From an uncultured Dehalococcoidia bacterium (lineage in GTDB: Bacteria > Chloroflexota > Dehalococcoidia > Dehalococcoidales > Fen-1064): a DNA stretch of 41,996 nt. This document shows positions 2,946-34,849 of the stretch, piece after piece. The stretch is taken from positions 1 through 41,996 of the forward strand of contig CAIWXV010000014.1 in NCBI GenBank assembly GCA_903916765.1, read 5' to 3'. The stretch's first letter is position 1; every line of letters begins with the position of its first letter. A program made the position numbers and the translations under genes. The notes beneath the pieces were generated by a model. The model made no database searches and was not told the origin of the DNA. It saw nothing but the letters and a program-made list of their open reading frames with translations.

Positions 2946-2973
2946 AAAAAAAAAGCCGTCCCTGTGGGACGGC
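2946..2973 (-). terminator. Intrinsic terminator in the ilvD leader (attenuator)
   Basis: Minus strand GCCGTCCC-ACA-GGGACGGC followed by T9; between leader peptide and ilvD. Confidence 0.9.
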
Positions 2974-2998
2974 CCCAAATGCGCGGAGACGAGCCCAC

Positions 2999-3052
2999 TC
3001 ACTGGCTTAAATATGTAACAATAAGTACGAGAGAAAACGTCAAACTATTCAT
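2999..3052 (-). CDS. Branched-chain leader peptide MNSLTFSLVLIVTYLSQ
   Basis: 18-codon ORF just downstream of promoter and upstream of terminator; Leu/Val/Ile-rich (LVLIV). Confidence 0.75.
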   Translation of the reverse strand: MNSLTFSLVLIVTYLSQ

Positions 3053-26017: not shown

Positions 26018-26887
26018 TTACAGTTTCTCAGTTATCTTGTACATATTCTCGTAAGCACTACGAAAATCAGGATCGGTCTTTTCCAATCTCTCCCTCAGTA
26101 GATTCATCCTTTTGGCAAAACCCTGCTTATCTTTTTTCCTCACCATATCAGCCCAGATTTCAGTATTAGTGTGGAAAAGTATTTCGATATTATTGATATT
26201 GGGGAAGTTTATTTGCAGTGAAGCATAAAGTTGCGGGTCTTCCGAAATAACGCTTTCTATCAGGGTATATAGCACTTTGAAGGTAGTGCCTCCGATTTTT
26301 TTCATCTCCTGGAATTTGTTGAAGCTGAGCAGAGTGTCAGCAGAGACGATGGCAATGAAATGTGTCAGCCCCAGCACTATCGTCATCATTTCGTCGTGTT
26401 CTTGCGGAGTCATAATAGAAACATTGGCATTTCTGGTGTCAAGCAGTTTTTTAATCTTATCGGCTAAAGCAGACTCATATTTATTGGTGGGAGTGAGTAT
26501 AATGTTCTGTTTTGCCACATCTTTAGCACCAGGCCCGAATACCGGATGTGTTCCCAGTACCATACCTTCTGTGATGTAACGGTGCATTATTTCGACGGGT
26601 CGTGATTTCAACGATGTGACATCTATGATAATCTGTTGTTTATTGGTGTGAGGCGCAATTTCTTTAACTACCGATTCGAAATTATCGAGAGGCACCGATA
26701 TGATGATAACATCTGATTGTTTGACGGCGTCGATATTTGTGGCAATTGGCACTCCCAGTTCTTTCCCTGCGGAGAGTAATTTCTCATGGTTACGGCCGGT
26801 AATAACTACCTGCATCCCTTCTTTCAATAGGTAGCGTGCAAACCAACGCCCCATGTTACCTGAACCACCGATTATGGCTATCTTCAT
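26018..26887 (-). CDS. tyrA: Prephenate dehydrogenase
   Basis: MKIAIIGGSGNMGRWFARYLLKEG...GTHPVFGPGAKD; last gene of the aro operon. Confidence 0.85.
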   Translation of the reverse strand: MKIAIIGGSGNMGRWFARYLLKEGMQVVITGRNHEKLLSAGKELGVPIATNIDAVKQSDVIIISVPLDNFESVVKEIAPHTNKQQIIIDVTSLKSRPVEIMHRYITEGMVLGTHPVFGPGAKDVAKQNIILTPTNKYESALADKIKKLLDTRNANVSIMTPQEHDEMMTIVLGLTHFIAIVSADTLLSFNKFQEMKKIGGTTFKVLYTLIESVISEDPQLYASLQINFPNINNIEILFHTNTEIWADMVRKKDKQGFAKRMNLLRERLEKTDPDFRSAYENMYKITEKL

Positions 26888-26909
26888 CCGCTCACCTCGT
26901 AAATTTCAA

Positions 26910-27977
26910 TTACATTGCTTTAGGATAAGAGCCGAGAACTTTCAGGAATAAGGTATGCTTTTCCAGTCTATCCAGCGTATCTTTTACAATCTTGTCCTGA
27001 TGATGTCCTTCGAAATCAAGGTAAAAGTTGTATTCCCATGCTTTTTGGCGGGTAGGGCGTGACTCGATTTTGGTCAGATTTATTTTACTATCGGAAAATT
27101 CTTTGAGTGCTCCATAAAGTGCCCCCGGTTTATGTTTTACGGAAAAAACGATGGAGGTCTTATCTTTACCCGTCGGCGGTGAATCATTCTTTGCAAGGAT
27201 GAAGAAGCGCGTAAAATTATTCGGGTTATCTTCGATTTCACGGGCGAGAATCTTCATCCCGTAAATTTCTGCTGCACGGGCAGAGGCAACAGCCGCACCG
27301 TCGAGGATACCTTTCTCTTTAATAAGTTTGACACTACCGGCAGTGTCGTAGGTTGGAATCAGCTCGCAATTTAGGTGTCTTAGAAATGTCTGACATTGCC
27401 CCAGCGCTTGAGGATGAGAATATATCTTTTTGATGGTATCGAGATTTGCCTCGTGATTAGCAATCAGGCAGTGGACGATTCTCAGTTCCAATTCTCCGCA
27501 GACCTTGAGACTTGATTTCAATAGCAAATCATAGACACGACTGATACTTCCTTCCAGTGAATTTTCAATCGGTACGATGCCGTAGGATACCTCGTCTTGT
27601 TCAACGATTTTGAAGACGTCATCGAAGTTTTCACAGGGTTTGGCATGGGCAGCATTGCCGAAATGTTGAAAAGCCGCCTCTTCACTGTATGCTCCAATCT
27701 CACCCTGGAATGCTACCACTGTTCCCTGTACACTTTTGGAAGATTTAATAATTTGCTGGTAAATACTTTCGATTTCCTTCTCTTCCAGATTTAAGGTGCG
27801 GGCGATCTCTCTGATGTGAGCAAGCACCTTTGCCTCGCGGCTGGGGTCATCAATCGGTTTTCCCTGTTTCTGTTTTTCCTTGCCGATTTCTTGTGACTGT
27901 CTTATCCTTTCGGCAATAAGCCTCACAATTTGCTCATCGGTTCCATCGATTTTATTTCTCAGTTCTTCCAGACTCAT
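26910..27977 (-). CDS. pheA: Bifunctional chorismate mutase/prephenate dehydratase
   Basis: [35 protein letters not shown] (CM) + [19 protein letters not shown]...[10 protein letters not shown]...[25 protein letters not shown] overlap with aroC stop. Confidence 0.95.
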
Positions 27978-29066
27978 TTGATTACCTCCGGGATAAGTCT
28001 TGCTCTCAAAGCAAAGTCGCATAGAGTGATTGCCATCATTGCCGAAACGACAGGTATCGCTCTGGGAACGATACAAACATCATGCCTGCCCTTAATTTCC
28101 AGTTCAGCATTTTTCATGGTATCGATATTAACGGTCGATTGTTTTTGACTGATGGATGGCGTTGGCTTTACAGCGACTCTGACGACGATAGGCATACCGT
28201 TACTGATACCGCCCAGAATACCGCCGGCATTATTGGTGGTGGTTAAAATCTTGCTGCGTTTGATAGTAAAGGGGGTCGTTGTTTTCCGAGCCTTTTTTAT
28301 TGGCTGCGGCAAAGCCGGTGCCGAATTCAACTCCTTTGACTGCCGGGATAGCAAATAGCGCCTTTGCCAATTCTCCTTCCATTGTATCGCAGACAGGTTC
28401 GCCCAATCCGGCCGGAATATTCAGGGCGATGCCCTCGATAATACCACCGAGGCTATCCCCTTCTTTTCGTGCCTGCTCGATAGCTTTCAACATTTTTTCT
28501 GTGGCTTTGGGGTCGGCACATCTGAGAGGATTTTGCTCGATAGCGTTTTTGATTTCGTCCATGTTTTTTGTATGTGCTTTGATACCGCCGATTTCTAAAG
28601 TATGGGCAATAATCTCGACTCCGAGCATATCGAGTATTTTTTGGGCGATTGCACCTGCCATTACGTAGCCAGTTGTGATTCTACCCGAAAATCTGCCGCC
28701 ACCTCGAAAATCGTTAAATCCGCCGTACTTCATAAATGCCGTGTAGTCGGCATGTCCCGGGCGGAGTAGGACTCTGGCTTTCTCATAAGCATCGGAGTCG
28801 CTATCCTGATTCCAGACGAGAAGGCAGATAGGGGCGCCGGTGGTATGCTTGTCGTAGATACCTGACAAAATGTCCACCTTATCCTCTTCGGCTCTTTTGG
28901 TGGATGCTGCTCCTGTCCCCGGTTTTCTTTTATTTAATTCGGTTTGAATATCTTTCTCACTAATCGGCAAACCTGCCGGACAGCCGTCAATGACAACGCC
29001 GACACATTTGCCGTGACTTTCTCCGAAACTGGTGGCGGTGAATATTTTACCCAAACTATTACTCAT
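27974..29066 (-). CDS. aroC: Chorismate synthase, split by an apparent +1 frameshift
   Basis: N-terminal ORF (29066-28230) [32 protein letters not shown]... and C-terminal frame ...[41 protein letters not shown]...[19 protein letters not shown]; junction at C5 run (plus-strand G5 at 28271-28275). Confidence 0.9.
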
Positions 29067-30321
29067 TTAACTTCACTCTCCCTCCCAGTTTTTTGAATAC
29101 TTCCCAGAACTCCGGATAGGTTTTAGTGACACATTCCGCTTGCTCGATAACCGTTTCTCCGGCTACTGAACCCAGTAGGCTGAATGCCATCGCAATACGG
29201 TGGTCGTTATGGCTGGTAATCTGTGTCCCTTTCGGCTTTTTACCGGTAATTGCCAGTAAATTTGATTCCTCAGTAACGGGGATCCCCATTTTTTCTAATC
29301 CGGCTCTGAGGGAAGTGACCCTATCCGATTCTTTAATTCTTGCCCGTTCGATGCCAGTAAATTCACTTGTACCCTCGGCTACCGCTGCTAGCACTGCCAC
29401 TGTCGGTAGCAGGTCGATGCAGTCATTCAAGTCTGCTTTAATTGCCTTCAGTTTCGACTGCCTGACGATGATGGAATTACTGCCTACGGTAACAACTGCC
29501 CCCATTTCTTGCAGGAAACGGATTATCATCCGGTCGCCTTGAAGACTTTCGGTATCGAGATTATTGACTTCAACCTCGCCTGACAGTGCCCCCAATGCCA
29601 GCAGGTAGGAAGCTGAGGACCAATCGCCTTCCACTCTGAATTTTGTCGGCTTATATCTCTGGGGCAATATCTCGAATTCATCGAGATTATCGTTGAAAGC
29701 CACTGTGATGCCGAACCATTGCATTGTATCCAGAGTCATTATGACGTAAGGTCGTGACTCCAGCGGAGAAGTCAATTTGATAACCATACCGTTTTCGGCA
29801 AATGGAGCGACTTGCAGTAATGCCGAAACAAATTGGGAACTGATATTACCTGGCAAACTTGTAGTGCCGCCGTTCAGTTTACCACCGTTTACGGTTACGG
29901 GTGGCAATTCGTTATTACTCGAACAGTCGATACCCAGTTGTCGCAGAGCATCCAGTAATGTTTTTACGGGTCTTCGTGACAGGGACGGTCCGGCAGTAAG
30001 ATGACTGGTTCCTGGAATGATGGAGCAGATGGCAGTCATAAAACGCAAAGTGGCGGCAGAGTCGCCACAAAATAGGTCTTCCTTGGTTGCGTGGAAGTTT
30101 CCGCCATCGACTAACCAGTTATTTTTCTGCTGTCGGATGCTAATGCCTATCTTTTTCAGTACGTTAGTAGCGGCAATAGTATCATCGGAAGCTAGCGGGA
30201 AGGCAATTGTGCTCTTACCGCTTGCAAGTGCCCCGCATATCAAACCGCGGATGGTGTAACTCTTGGACGATGGTGCGGTTACTTTACCGGCGATTTCACT
30301 TTTGGAAATCGAAGCCTTCAT
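29059..30321 (-). CDS. aroA: 3-phosphoshikimate 1-carboxyvinyltransferase (EPSP synthase)
   Basis: [61 protein letters not shown]. Confidence 0.96.
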
Positions 30322-30832
30322 ATGATTTCAACCTGTCGATTATTTCATTGGCAACTGCGTTAATATCCAATTTCGAGGTATCAATAGTAATATCTGCGCT
30401 TCTTCCATAAAAAGGTTTTCTGAATTTCATCAATTCTTTTATGTGCTTCGACGGGTCATCGACATCGAGGAGAGGACGACTACCTTGCTTATGGGAAATC
30501 CGTTTCAAAATTGTTGCCGGTGAGGCAGTGAGATTGACAATGACACTGTTCTCTCTCAAACGGTCGATGTTGATGGTGTTTAAGACGACTCCGCCGCCGC
30601 AGACAATGACTTTCCTCTTCTCTCTTGCGGCATTTTTAACTGCCTCGATTTCAAGTTCGCGGAAGGCAATCTCTCCGTTATCGCGGAAAATGTCTGCAAT
30701 AGGCTTTCCTGCTTTCCGTTCGATAATCGAGTCTATCTCGACCACCCGGCGGTTCAGTTTTTTTGCCAGCATCTGCCCGACGGTTGTTTTGCCCGTGCCC
30801 ATAAAGCCAATCAGAGCGACATTACTTTTCAT
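30296..30832 (-). CDS. aroK: Shikimate kinase
   Basis: VALIGFMGTGKTTVGQMLAKKLNRRVVEIDSIIERKAGKPIADIFRDNGEIAFRELE. Confidence 0.95.
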   Translation of the reverse strand: MKSNVALIGFMGTGKTTVGQMLAKKLNRRVVEIDSIIERKAGKPIADIFRDNGEIAFRELEIEAVKNAAREKRKVIVCGGGVVLNTINIDRLRENSVIVNLTASPATILKRISHKQGSRPLLDVDDPSKHIKELMKFRKPFYGRSADITIDTSKLDINAVANEIIDRLKSYEGFDFQK

Positions 30833-31700
30833 TTTTCTGTAATAACCTCATTGCCGATTGACGCATCAGGTCGACGGGAGGTTTTTGTCCGGTCCATTTT
30901 TCAAAAGAAAGCGCACCTTGACAGACCAGCATTTCCAGACCGTCGATGGTTCTGGCACCTGCCGTTTTTGCTTCTTGCAGGAGTCTGGTCGGGAAGGGGT
31001 TGTAAATAATATCGAAGACAACCATATTCGAACAAAGAAACTCTGCATCTACCGGTGTCTCGTGGCTGTTCGGGCTCATTCCGACGCTGGTGGCATTAAC
31101 CAGAATATCGGTATTTGCTAGTACCTGCTCTAAGTTCTTTTTGTTCAATTCATCGGCTCGGACATTGATGGTGTAGTTTTGTTTGATGCGATTTGCAATA
31201 TCTTGTGCCCATTCCAATTCCAGTTTGCGATTAAGTATGACCAGACTGACGCCTTGTTCTGCCAGAATAAAGCAGATGGCTTTTGCAGCTCCGCCTGCTC
31301 CTAGTACCAATATCTTCTTTCCAATGGGGTTAATGTCTTTCTCCAGTAAAGCTTGTATAAATCCATATGCATCCGTATTGTAACCAGTCAGGATGCCTTC
31401 GTCATTGACGATAGTATTTGCAGCGCCGATTTTCTCTGCCAGAGGGTCAATCTTGTCCAGCAATTGCATTACAGCTACCTTATGAGGGATAGTCACGTTA
31501 AGCCCTCTGATATTCAGTGCTCGGGCTCCTGCGATAGCTTGTTTTAGTTCTTCGTTCTTTACCTTGAAGGGCAAGTAAACATAGTCCAACCCCAGCGTTT
31601 TGAAGGCTGTGTTGTGCATTACGGGCGACATCGTGTGTTCGATAGGGTCGCCGATAATGCCGCAGATTTTTGTCTTGCCGGATATTACCTTATCTTTCAT
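30822..31700 (-). CDS. aroE: Shikimate dehydrogenase
   Basis: ICGIIGDPIEHTMSPVMHNTAFKTLGLDYVYLPF, GLNVTIPHK, GAANTIVND, NTDAYGF, VLGAGGAAKA. Confidence 0.96.
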   Translation of the reverse strand: MKDKVISGKTKICGIIGDPIEHTMSPVMHNTAFKTLGLDYVYLPFKVKNEELKQAIAGARALNIRGLNVTIPHKVAVMQLLDKIDPLAEKIGAANTIVNDEGILTGYNTDAYGFIQALLEKDINPIGKKILVLGAGGAAKAICFILAEQGVSLVILNRKLELEWAQDIANRIKQNYTINVRADELNKKNLEQVLANTDILVNATSVGMSPNSHETPVDAEFLCSNMVVFDIIYNPFPTRLLQEAKTAGARTIDGLEMLVCQGALSFEKWTGQKPPVDLMRQSAMRLLQKNEK

Positions 31701-32353
31701 ACCGTCAGCATCTCATAAAATTTGAGCATTTCGGTTACCGGTAACTGTCCCGGTGCGGATTCCTTACCTTTCTGCACGGCGCCGTAGGTAAAATCAGCTC
31801 CAAACATCGGAGCCATGACACGGCTCATTAATCCCTGTTGCCCCATCGCAAAGGCAATCATTCTTGTCTTAGGAAACTCGGTAATAAGTTTCAGGATGGT
31901 GAGATTATCTTCGAATTCTTTGGCGGTAGTCACTATCTTACAGATGTCTGCCCCGGCTTTTAATTCGCTTTGAACAATTTGCCTCAGAGTATCCAGAGGA
32001 GGAGTTTTTTGAAAATCGTGGAAGGATAACAGGCATAATGCCCTTTTCCTAACAAACTGGATAATATTGCCGACATTCTTAGCACTGTATTCGATATCGA
32101 CAATTTGTGCTCCTAGTTCTATTGCCTGAAGTAACCTCTCGATTCTTCTTGCTTCATTACCATCCCATTTCCCGCCTTCTTCGACCATGCGATTGCAGGC
32201 AATCCATGGTTTTTTCAGTTGACGGGCAATTTCGGTCCAACCGTCACCGATGAGGTCGATTCTGACTTCGAACAAATCAACCAGGGGCTCGACTTCTTTC
32301 ACGGCTTTAATGTCGGTATTGATGATACTGGCGCAAAGTTTTAATTTCTTCAT
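31697..32353 (-). CDS. aroD: 3-dehydroquinate dehydratase type I
   Basis: VDLFEVRIDLI, LLSFHDFQKTP, GADICKIVTTA; position in aro operon. Confidence 0.9.
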   Translation of the reverse strand: MKKLKLCASIINTDIKAVKEVEPLVDLFEVRIDLIGDGWTEIARQLKKPWIACNRMVEEGGKWDGNEARRIERLLQAIELGAQIVDIEYSAKNVGNIIQFVRKRALCLLSFHDFQKTPPLDTLRQIVQSELKAGADICKIVTTAKEFEDNLTILKLITEFPKTRMIAFAMGQQGLMSRVMAPMFGADFTYGAVQKGKESAPGQLPVTEMLKFYEMLTV

Positions 32354-33432
32354 TTCAATTCCACCAGAATCCTTTCTATCAGAGCAGGGCTTACATCATC
32401 GGTGATAAATACTTCACCGATTGACTTCGGCAGGATAAATCTTATCTTTCCTCTCTGGACTTTTTTATCGAATTGCATCGCCTGCATTATTTGTTCTATT
32501 TCTAATCGAGGTAACACAGTCATCAATCCGGCTTTTTTGAGTAGCTTCGCCAGTCTTATAACAGCTTTAGAATCGACAAGACTGAGTTCAGCAGCAATCT
32601 TTACTCCTGCCATCATTCCGATGCCGACTGCTTGACCGTGGGCAATCTCGAAATTGGAAACCGATTCGACTGCATGTCCGACAGTATGTCCGAAATTGAG
32701 GATATTCCTCAAACCCATATCCTTTTCATCGTTTTCTACAACTCCCGTCTTGATTCGGGCGGACTTGGTAACAATTGTTTCCAGCACATTATCATCTAAC
32801 GACTTAACCGGGTCAAGGTTTTTTTCGAGGTAAGTGAAAAATTTCTCGTCCCTGATAACTGCATATTTGATAACTTCACTGAGTCCGTTAACAATCCCGG
32901 CAGACGGCAAAGTTTTCAGAGTGGCAATGTCTGAAATTACGGTTCTCGGTTGGTGGAAAGCTCCGATGTTATTCTTTAACTTACCGTGGTTCACAGCAAC
33001 TTTTCCGCCGATACTGCTATCCACCTGTGCCAGTAGGGTGGTGGGTATTTGCACCAGTGGAATTCCTCTCATATAAGTGGCGGCAACAAATCCCGCCAGG
33101 TCACCGATAACACCACCGCCTAGTGCCAGAATGGGCGTTGTCCTTTCTGCTCCGAATTCCGTTAGCTGGTGATACAATTTACCTGCCGATTCCAGGGATT
33201 TGTACTCTTCGCCGTCGGGAACTGAGAGTATCGTTACCCAGAAACCCTCATTGATGAGGCTCTGTTTCAGGCTGGTACCATACAGTTTTTTGACAATAGG
33301 ATTAGTTATGATAATTGCCTTATCATTAAATCCCATTTCTTTTAATATCTGCCCAGTTTGGCTAAGAGTGCCGGAACCGATGCGGATATCGTAACTGTTT
33401 TGTCCCAGATTGACCCTGATTGTTTTCACCAA
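32350..33432 (-). CDS. aroB: 3-dehydroquinate synthase
   Basis: SVPDGEEYKSLE, ALGGGVIGDLAGFVAATYMRGIPLVQIPTTLLAQVDSSIGGKVAVNHGKLKNNIGAFHQP. Confidence 0.97.
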   Translation of the reverse strand: MVKTIRVNLGQNSYDIRIGSGTLSQTGQILKEMGFNDKAIIITNPIVKKLYGTSLKQSLINEGFWVTILSVPDGEEYKSLESAGKLYHQLTEFGAERTTPILALGGGVIGDLAGFVAATYMRGIPLVQIPTTLLAQVDSSIGGKVAVNHGKLKNNIGAFHQPRTVISDIATLKTLPSAGIVNGLSEVIKYAVIRDEKFFTYLEKNLDPVKSLDDNVLETIVTKSARIKTGVVENDEKDMGLRNILNFGHTVGHAVESVSNFEIAHGQAVGIGMMAGVKIAAELSLVDSKAVIRLAKLLKKAGLMTVLPRLEIEQIMQAMQFDKKVQRGKIRFILPKSIGEVFITDDVSPALIERILVELK

Positions 33433-33439
33433 GTATTAA

Positions 33440-34504
33440 CTAGCCTCCGTTTTGTTTTATGCCAATCGCTTTATGTATGCCCTGACAAGCAGTGATGAGT
33501 TCCTTCAATTCGTCGGGTGTGATTTGTTGCTGGCTGTCTACCAGTGCCTCTACCGGATTATGATGCACTTCGACTATCAAGCCACAGGCACCGACAGCAA
33601 CACTCGCACAGCTCAGGCTGAAAATCAGGTCTCGTCGCCCTGCCGCATGACTAGGGTCGACAATCACCGGTAGGTAGGTCTCTTTCTTTAGAACTGGCAC
33701 TGCCGCCAGGTCAAGCGTGTACCTAGTATAACTTTTACCCTTACCCAATGGCAAGATACCCCGCTCGCAGAGAATGATATCTTTGTTTTCTTCTGCCACC
33801 ATATACTCGGCGAAGGACAGGAATTCTTCAATACCAGCGCCGAAATGACGCTTGTAAAGTATCGGTTTGCCTGTTCGAGCAACTTTGACGAGCAGGTCCT
33901 GGTCGTACATATTTCTGGAGCCAATCTGAATGATGTCTACATATTTGGCTACCAGATCCACTTGCGATTCACCTCTGATTTCAGTAACGACAGGCAATTC
34001 GAATTTGTTGCCTGCTTCGCGGAACCACTCCAATGCTTCAGTTGCTTCCTCTTCTCCTGCAGAGCCCAGTCCCTGGAAGGAGTGAACGGAAGAGCGTGGC
34101 TTGAAGATGCCACCCCTTAGCATTTGAGCGCCGGCTTTCTTAACGCCTTCGGCAATTTTGAAAAGTTGCTTTTTACTTTCCACTGCGCATGGTCCGGCGA
34201 TGAAAACCAGTTTATCCCCGCCGATTTCAACATCACCGACCTTGATGATTCTTCGCTCGCTTTCGCCTGTGAGTTTGGCATATTCACGACTGATTAGTTT
34301 ATAAGGTGTCTCGACCATCCTTGCCTCCTTTACTCCCGGTAATATAGCAAAGTGGTCAAACGGTATTTTGCGCTCATCACCGATAAGTCCGATGATGGTG
34401 CGAAAAGCTCCTTGAGAGACATCGGCACGCAGTCCGTGGCTTTCTATTTCCTTGATAACTGCGGCAATCTGTTCTTTAGTGGCATCGCTCTTCATGATAA
34501 TCAT
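33440..34504 (-). CDS. aroF: 3-deoxy-7-phosphoheptulonate synthase
   Basis: IAGPCAVESKKQLFKIAEGVKKAGAQMLRGGIFKPRSSVHSFQGLG...LYKRHFGAGIEEFLSFAEYMVAE...VDPSHAAGRRDL. Confidence 0.95.
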   Translation of the reverse strand: MIIMKSDATKEQIAAVIKEIESHGLRADVSQGAFRTIIGLIGDERKIPFDHFAILPGVKEARMVETPYKLISREYAKLTGESERRIIKVGDVEIGGDKLVFIAGPCAVESKKQLFKIAEGVKKAGAQMLRGGIFKPRSSVHSFQGLGSAGEEEATEALEWFREAGNKFELPVVTEIRGESQVDLVAKYVDIIQIGSRNMYDQDLLVKVARTGKPILYKRHFGAGIEEFLSFAEYMVAEENKDIILCERGILPLGKGKSYTRYTLDLAAVPVLKKETYLPVIVDPSHAAGRRDLIFSLSCASVAVGACGLIVEVHHNPVEALVDSQQQITPDELKELITACQGIHKAIGIKQNGG

Positions 34505-34540
34505 TGCTTTTCTCCTGTTTTGTAGTTTTGTTGAGCATAT

Positions 34541-34575
34541 AAAAAGAAGAACCCTCTGCTTAAGAGGGCTCTTCT
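34541..34575 (-). terminator. Intrinsic terminator in the aro operon leader (attenuator)
   Basis: Minus strand AGAAGAGCCCTC-TTAAGCA-GAGGGTTCTTCT then TTTTT. Confidence 0.92.
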
Positions 34576-34628
34576 GATTTCTAACTTTGGAACTATCTGT
34601 TTCAGTCTATTTTTTTGCACAACGCCTC

Positions 34629-34694
34629 TCAAGCACTTTTCGTGCCCCAAAACGCGAAGTAGTAGTAATAATATCTCTGAGAGACGTTTAACAT
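34629..34694 (-). CDS. Aromatic amino acid leader peptide MLNVSQRYYYYYFAFWGTKSA
   Basis: 22-codon ORF upstream of DAHP synthase with Tyr5-Phe-Ala-Phe-Trp control codons; followed by mutually exclusive hairpins and terminator. Confidence 0.9.
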   Translation of the reverse strand: MLNVSQRYYYYYFAFWGTKSA

Positions 34695-34702
34695 CAATAT
34701 TG

Positions 34703-34731
34703 AATTTATCATAGGCGAATTATTTTGTCAA
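34703..34731 (-). promoter_or_regulatory. sigma70-type promoter of aro operon leader
   Basis: TTGACA - 17 nt - TAAATT on minus strand; predicted +1 at or adjacent to leader ATG. Confidence 0.75.
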
Positions 34732-34788: not shown

Positions 34789-34849
34789 TGTACAGTTAGC
34801 CTCTCGTTCCCGGGACGGGTGGGAGGTTTTGTTTCTGTAAGATGATTAG

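Follow-up and report, generated by a model that had tools for sequence, protein, structure and literature searches.

A short open reading frame with a run of tyrosine, phenylalanine and tryptophan codons lies on the minus strand between the divergent thrS gene and a DAHP synthase gene, and the question raised by this locus is whether the frame controls the operon that follows it, and by which mechanism. The window, i.e., the whole stretch of 41,996 nucleotides that was analyzed, belongs to a contig from a 1.37-Mb assembly that is 97% complete. An earlier note on this DNA had proposed a classical attenuator, and according to our analysis the whole aro-pheA-tyrA operon is very probably controlled by this leader through ribosome-mediated transcription attenuation of the trp/phe/his type; we infer translation of the leader, stalling of the ribosome and sensing of the individual amino acids from the features described below.

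The leader locus and its operon

The elements of the leader locus are collected in Table 1. Re-reading of the sequence bore out everything that the earlier note had stated about the bases, namely promoter, reading frame, strands 1 to 3, terminator and the DAHP synthase gene downstream, with the amendment that the antiterminator formed by strands 2 and 3 is longer than noted: UGCUUGAGAGG pairs with CCUCUUAAGCA at 11 of 11 positions, including one G-U pair. The terminator is the sole site detected on the minus strand of this region by a terminator scan, and the Shine-Dalgarno-like motif AGGAGA precedes the DAHP synthase start at 34504. The predicted +1 is located about 1 nt ahead of the leader ATG, and the window leader probably has a (near-)leaderless start. 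Scanning of both strands showed that 8 aromatic codons among 10 open codons are unique in the 42-kb window; an equally rich aromatic run occurred in 1 of 20,000 simulated 401-nt upstream regions of the same base composition, and the fold of the leader RNA is 3.2 sd more stable than that of shuffled sequences.

Table 1. Elements of the leader locus and of the operon downstream, listed in the direction of transcription.
Feature	Positions	Strand	Basis
Promoter TTGACA (34731-34726), N17, TAAATT (34708-34703)	34703..34731	-	consensus promoter, read in sequence
Leader ORF MLNVSQRYYYYYFAFWGTKSA*, 21 codons, with 5 Tyr, 2 Phe and 1 Trp	34629..34694	-	sequence and comparison
Strand 1 AACGTCTCTCA, partner of strand 2	34678..34688	-	
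Regulatory codons TAT TAT TAC TAC TAC TTC GCG TTT TGG (Y5, F, A, F, W)	34647..34673	-	
Small hairpin GCAC-GAAAA-GUGC between codon run and strand 2, 3' arm overlapping the 5' end of strand 2	34633..34645	-	
Strand 2 TGCTTGAGAGGCGTT, includes the UGA stop, partner of strand 1 or 3	34621..34635	-	
Intrinsic terminator, 13-bp hairpin AGAAGAGCCCTCT-TAAGC-AGAGGGTTCTTCT (34575-34545), then U-rich tail TTTTATAT	34537..34575	-	
Strand 3 CCTCTTAAGCA, 5' arm and loop of the terminator, 11-bp antiterminator with strand 2	34557..34567	-	
aroF-type DAHP synthase, first gene of the operon	33440..34504	-	NF006421 and TIGR01361 over cut-off
Remaining operon: aroB, aroD, aroE, aroK, aroA, aroC, pheA, tyrA	26018..33432	-	curated models

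The operon had been described as a shikimate operon of nine genes, and the identities of all nine (aroF, B, D, E, K, A, C, pheA and tyrA) were confirmed, with the qualification that aroC is frameshifted in the assembly. The genes overlap or abut, pheA codes for a chorismate mutase/prephenate dehydratase, and the gene order aroF-B-D-E-K-A-C-pheA is also found in locus L143. The frameshift near 28251-28294 splits aroC on the minus strand into two overlapping frames and is due to either an assembly error or real decay.

Two further regions of the window were noted. Directly upstream of thrS, on the plus strand, a terminator-like hairpin of 12 bp with a weak T tail (34798-34828) lies downstream of a TTGCAC-N17-TATAAT promoter, and control of thrS via its 5'-UTR, with no T-box motif, appears possible from the sequence. 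Upstream of ilvD-ilvB, on the minus strand (2955-3052), a leader-like frame MNSLTFSLVLIVTYLSQ (2999-3052) is followed by a terminator (2955-2974, then a T run); several relatives (L172, L173, L189) retain its core SLVLIVTY(S/L)S, and a multivalent branched-chain attenuator is suggested by this conservation.

Conservation of the aromatic codon run

For comparison, we took the sequence upstream of aroF at 45 distinct orthologous loci (63-100% protein identity). The set comprises the window, its relatives at the level of genus, family and order, two further groups of the class and named metagenome-assembled genomes (MAGs), the latter being Dehalococcoidales/Dehalococcoidia MAGs of the phylum Chloroflexota. 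Among these genomes, G021, G088 and G137 are most likely Dehalococcoides and the g33 genomes most likely Dehalogenimonas. In 45 of 45 loci, aromatic codons are clustered in a short ORF at the same place as in the window, and G027 and G028, which were missed at first, carry an aromatic leader as well, so that the run is kept in 47 of 47 orthologous loci. The earlier note had named orthologous upstream regions as a check on its attenuator reading, which gains support both from these leaders and from the conserved, covarying pairing of strands 2 and 3 described in the next section.

The leader peptides diverge widely, as exemplified by RYYYYYFAFW, SQNFYFWYYF, YYWYYAF, YYAYFTFTW, SFYAYYYFTW and NYYYFTK, and thus the aromatic codons are their constant element; even the poorest run, that of L017, has 4 aromatic codons out of 10. 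Between the window and G002 of the same genus, four of the nine codons in the run are different, three by synonymous changes (TAT/TAC twice and TTC/TTT once), as expected if selection acts on the run as translated codons. Alternatively, the leader could encode a functional small protein, in keeping with a conserved short frame that has a promoter of its own; the hairpin would then be only a partial constitutive terminator. We regard this as the least probable of the readings considered, close to negligible, since peptide length (about 20-48 residues) and the sequence outside the aromatic cluster vary freely and since a plain terminator would not call for the observed covariation among strand 2, strand 3 and the terminator loop.

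An exact TTGACA is present just upstream of the leader in about 40 of the 45 loci. The distance between the predicted +1 and the leader ATG is at most about 2 nt in roughly 20 of them, including the window and the Dehalococcoides-like genomes, and about 8-30 nt in the others; given this proximity, leaderless initiation of the leader mRNA is likely in part of the group. For ilvBNC of Corynebacterium glutamicum, PMC4046766 cites earlier work (its reference 42) in which a leader peptide is synthesized in the absence of a ribosome binding site. Outside the orthologous set, none of the 17 upstream regions of DAHP synthases of 42-45% identity from other orders contained an aromatic cluster. The exception comes from yet another family: in G058, a DAHP synthase of about 46% identity is immediately preceded by a frame encoding YDFYFWYWF, the contig ending within the ORF.

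Tyrosine codons occur in all 45 leaders (174 codons), phenylalanine codons in 44 (94 codons) and tryptophan codons in 34 (36 codons), and all three are combined in 33. About a quarter of the leaders, including the Dehalococcoides-like L024, L056 and L057, have no Trp codon; comparison by eye revealed no clear relation between its absence and possession of a second DAHP synthase. The earlier statement that the leader reads all three products of the pathway is therefore retained for the codon content, from which sensing would follow only by extension. Tryptophan usually accounts for about 1% of the residues in proteins, and the finding of a Trp codon in or adjoining the run of 34 out of 45 peptides, each about 25 residues long, clearly exceeds this frequency. 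Moreover, its position is typical of the lineage (FTFTW, YYWYY), and the operon supplies the precursor that the three amino acids have in common. These observations argue against the possibility that the same attenuator is effectively a sensor of Tyr (or of Tyr and Phe), with the Trp codon, and in some lineages the Phe codons, being incidental. This narrower specificity, which we consider possible although rather doubtful, would be in line with the ranking of the codon counts, with the Dehalococcoides-like leaders devoid of Trp codons and with the fact that Trp-specific genes have T-box sensors of their own. Furthermore, AroR of C. glutamicum (Phe-Tyr-Phe) responds to Phe only (PMC11802643), so that the presence of a codon need not mean that the amino acid is sensed.

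Alternative RNA pairings and the proposed switch

A terminator is located just ahead of aroF in nearly all loci, and its 5' arm and loop complement the strand-2 motif, the consensus being CGCUUGGGAGG for strand 2 with CCUCCCAAGCG for strand 3. In a 24-sequence alignment, the 2:3 helix was paired in 92% of the cells as compared to 44-60% after a shift of 1 to 3 columns, and 20 double changes were counted versus 7.4 in shuffles. The terminator (3:4) covaries likewise, and unconstrained RNAalifold took 2:3, not the terminator, as the consensus structure. A simple best-match measure of covariation was set aside as biased because the pairing itself had picked the segments, and it was replaced by a comparison in which own and foreign partners were optimized alike: strand 2 fits the strand 3 of its own locus better than those of other species (z about 5, 0 of 20,000 permutations). 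This advantage persists with one sequence per family, and it is still seen, at reduced size, when the anchors were picked without regard to pairing (z about 3). Examples of covarying strand 2/strand 3 pairs are CACCCGGGAGG/CCUCCCGGGUG in L019, UGCUUGAGAGG/CCUCUUAAGCA in the window and CGCCUGGGGGG/CCUCCCAGGCG in L022; the covarying bases extend into the terminator loop, where the terminator imposes no constraint. A covariance model of the leader RNA (R1), built on this 2:3 consensus, was searched in Chloroflexota. The leader locus was the clear top match of its own genome, with an E-value of 7e-15 in that genome, which is partly so by construction because the site is in the alignment of the model.

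Three mutually exclusive pairings had been claimed for this leader. Two of them, 2:3 and 3:4, are conserved and covary, while the third, 1:2, is strong in the window and its family; in the Dehalococcoides-like and Dehalogenimonas-like loci and in several further lineages it is weak, absent or no better than chance, even though its total over all loci exceeds every shuffle total. A default state set by 1:2 without translation is thus not general. The small hairpin between the codon run and strand 2, in relatives often GCGCACC..GGTGCGC, is frequent in the lineages without a clear 1:2 pairing, and the default state may be set differently there. In several relatives the leader stop lies 20-30 nt beyond strand 2, and masking of strand 2 by a terminating ribosome must differ in these. 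Of the features typical of ribosome-mediated attenuators, the leader shows a short ORF with a run of end-product codons, a terminator before the first gene and an antiterminator that excludes it by sharing strand 3.

Folding with alternative states, which had been suggested as a further check, gave computed switching in nascent RNA. For nascent window RNA up to strand 3, the computed probability of 2:3 was 0.18 without a ribosome and rose to 0.95-0.98 when a stalled ribosome was placed on the first, the middle or the last codon for an aromatic residue, and with strand 2 masked the terminator formed at 0.98. For full-length RNA at equilibrium, the terminator was preferred in nearly all loci even with a stalled ribosome, and 2:3 was at 0.00 in the window; the switch must therefore be kinetic. 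Classical attenuators are generally held to decide kinetically.

In the switch that we propose, the first ribosome would follow RNA polymerase closely as it translates the leader. When charged tRNA-Tyr, tRNA-Phe or tRNA-Trp is short, the ribosome would stall in the aromatic run and cover or block strand 1, whereupon strand 2 would pair with strand 3 including the terminator loop, so that the terminator would be prevented and the operon transcribed. With charged aromatic tRNAs the ribosome would reach the stop inside strand 2 and mask this strand, and 3:4 would terminate transcription; without translation, 1:2 would form in the window lineage and termination would again be the default. The codon mix would act as an OR-type sensor, dominated by Tyr, for the three end products of the shared pathway. 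If the switch works as proposed, the pathway is made only when ribosomes run short of Tyr, Phe or Trp.

The 2:3 and 3:4 alternatives by themselves would fit any antitermination system, and T-boxes do occur in the same genomes, which raises the alternative of a switch that is independent of translation or set off in another way (by a T-box, an RNA-binding protein or a metabolite riboswitch), the ORF being incidental. This is very unlikely, as the aromatic codons persist while the nucleotides drift and as little conserved sequence exists outside the pairing strands for ligand binding. In addition, an Rfam search of the window and the leader returned no family over its gathering score and nothing near threshold at E up to 5; Phe_leader reached 21.2 bits on the leader strand, compared to a gathering score of 55, and 21.9 bits on the opposite strand. 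A T-box at aroF was rejected, since RF00230 did not match and the motif AGGGUGGNACCGCG was not above chance in the window.

Related leaders, T-boxes and known attenuators

The control of other aromatic genes in these genomes was also compared. In the same order, trp operons carry T-boxes (RF00230; noted for L084-L106 upstream of trpE and for G000:C50), in agreement with the T-boxes published for trpE and a trpB-like gene of Dehalococcoides (PMC2494555). Trp-rich leader peptides were considered at trpE, and none was convincing; T-box motifs are found there instead. The genome of the window has two T-boxes; no trpB was found over the model cut-off in this genome, and its one trpE-family match lies beside pabA- and pabC-like genes. 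A second DAHP synthase, 45-49% identical, is often located near trpE/trpB in the order. T-boxes on Trp-only genes together with a multi-codon leader on the shared trunk suggest a division of labor between single-tRNA sensors and the leader peptide. A T-box binds one tRNA, whereas one leader peptide can monitor several amino acids together, which offers a reason for this lineage to keep both mechanisms.

The covariance model also detected a second site in the Dehalogenimonas-like genomes, in G017 and, weakly (22.9 bits), in the genome of the window; it was not seen in other members of the window's family. The second leaders, noted at G000:C51:17583-17699 (L114), L134-L139, L118 and L191, are rich in Phe and Tyr (MFFGRFSYTFAFTKRTRVRLG..., MYSRFEQMTFTFTGRTKCAWG... 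and MSVAVYRLENFKFIFTTRTRCACGW) and have a similar pair of strand 2 and terminator. The operon behind them comprises an AMP-forming (acyl-CoA) ligase, two LIV-type permeases, a binding protein, an ABC ATPase and a PaaK-like ligase, and in the Dehalococcoides-like G021 MKYAGYTYFYFMFTGRTLCALSGAADE occupies the equivalent place before a ligase/ABC-transporter operon. Our guess is that this operon takes up aromatic acids and activates them to supply Phe and Tyr, a role that would fit the control logic. Two further matches of the model were L141 (G017:C21:63747-63864), with a leader-like ORF containing FEQMDYIYAVRTRCAGGLG... before a molybdopterin-oxidoreductase-like gene, and L133 (G121:C2:63827-63944), before an aminotransferase-like gene, where an aromatic leader is missing and a Leu-rich short frame (ECLLLL*) precedes strand 2.

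It is conceivable, and somewhat short of an even case, that these elements form an aromatic regulon with two mechanisms across Dehalococcoidia: one OR-gate leader for tRNA-Tyr, tRNA-Phe and tRNA-Trp on the shikimate trunk, a related Phe/Tyr leader for aromatic uptake and CoA activation (possibly arylacetate salvage), and one-tRNA T-boxes for Trp. The leader and the T-boxes predict how synthesis of aromatic amino acids is controlled in Dehalococcoides-type bacteria, which are important for the removal of chlorinated solvents, and the covariance model of the leader RNA is usable for annotation.

The open-access papers searched contained no report of aromatic genes controlled by a leader peptide in Chloroflexota or Dehalococcoides and none of a leader combining Tyr, Phe and Trp codons. 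A comparative attenuator survey by Lopatovskaya et al. from 2010, cited in PMC4833913, may list some of these leaders. The mechanism is classical, and what seems not to have been described before is the three-in-one leader and its wide conservation in Dehalococcoidia. With the trpL, pheL and pheM leaders of E. coli (Rfam Trp_leader and Phe_leader), it shares the four-strand logic of 1:2 pairing, 2:3 antiterminator and 3:4 terminator with the codons between strands 1 and 2; those leaders are single-amino-acid sensors of terminal branches or of a synthetase, and neither family matches here above its gathering score. In E. coli, aroF, aroG and aroH are under repression by TyrR/TrpR. Multivalent leaders are textbook knowledge for branched-chain amino acids: like the Ile/Val/Leu attenuator of E. 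coli ilvGMEDA, the leader described here would read several end products of a shared pathway, although ilvGMEDA is branched-chain rather than aromatic and no sequence relation is expected.

The uORFC-13-1 motif of Acholeplasma is likewise a candidate upstream ORF with a terminator ahead of aroF, but as described it has at least one Phe codon only, is restricted to the genus and differs in structure (PMC8632094). The T-box leaders of Dehalococcoides at trpE and the trpB-like gene also sense tRNA charging and control an aromatic branch in the same genomes; they do so by direct binding of one tRNA each, with no leader peptide, and are found on Trp-specific genes, not on the aro operon. By functional analogy, the closest precedent is aroR-aroF of C. 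glutamicum, in which a short leader with aromatic codons (Phe-Tyr-Phe) precedes a DAHP synthase operon and ribosome-mediated attenuation responds to limitation of Phe but not of Tyr, as far as this is described in PMC4046766 and, for Neshat et al. (2014), in PMC11802643. With regard to this published leader, the earlier view that the present one had not been described holds, within the papers searched, for the combination of three kinds of codons and for Chloroflexota, but not for an aromatic leader at aroF as such. The aroR leader belongs to the Actinomycetota, and the accounts of it in these two papers report no Trp codon, whereas the leader of Dehalococcoidia has up to 8 aromatic codons of three kinds, dominated by Tyr, stands before a nine-gene operon and is conserved order-wide.
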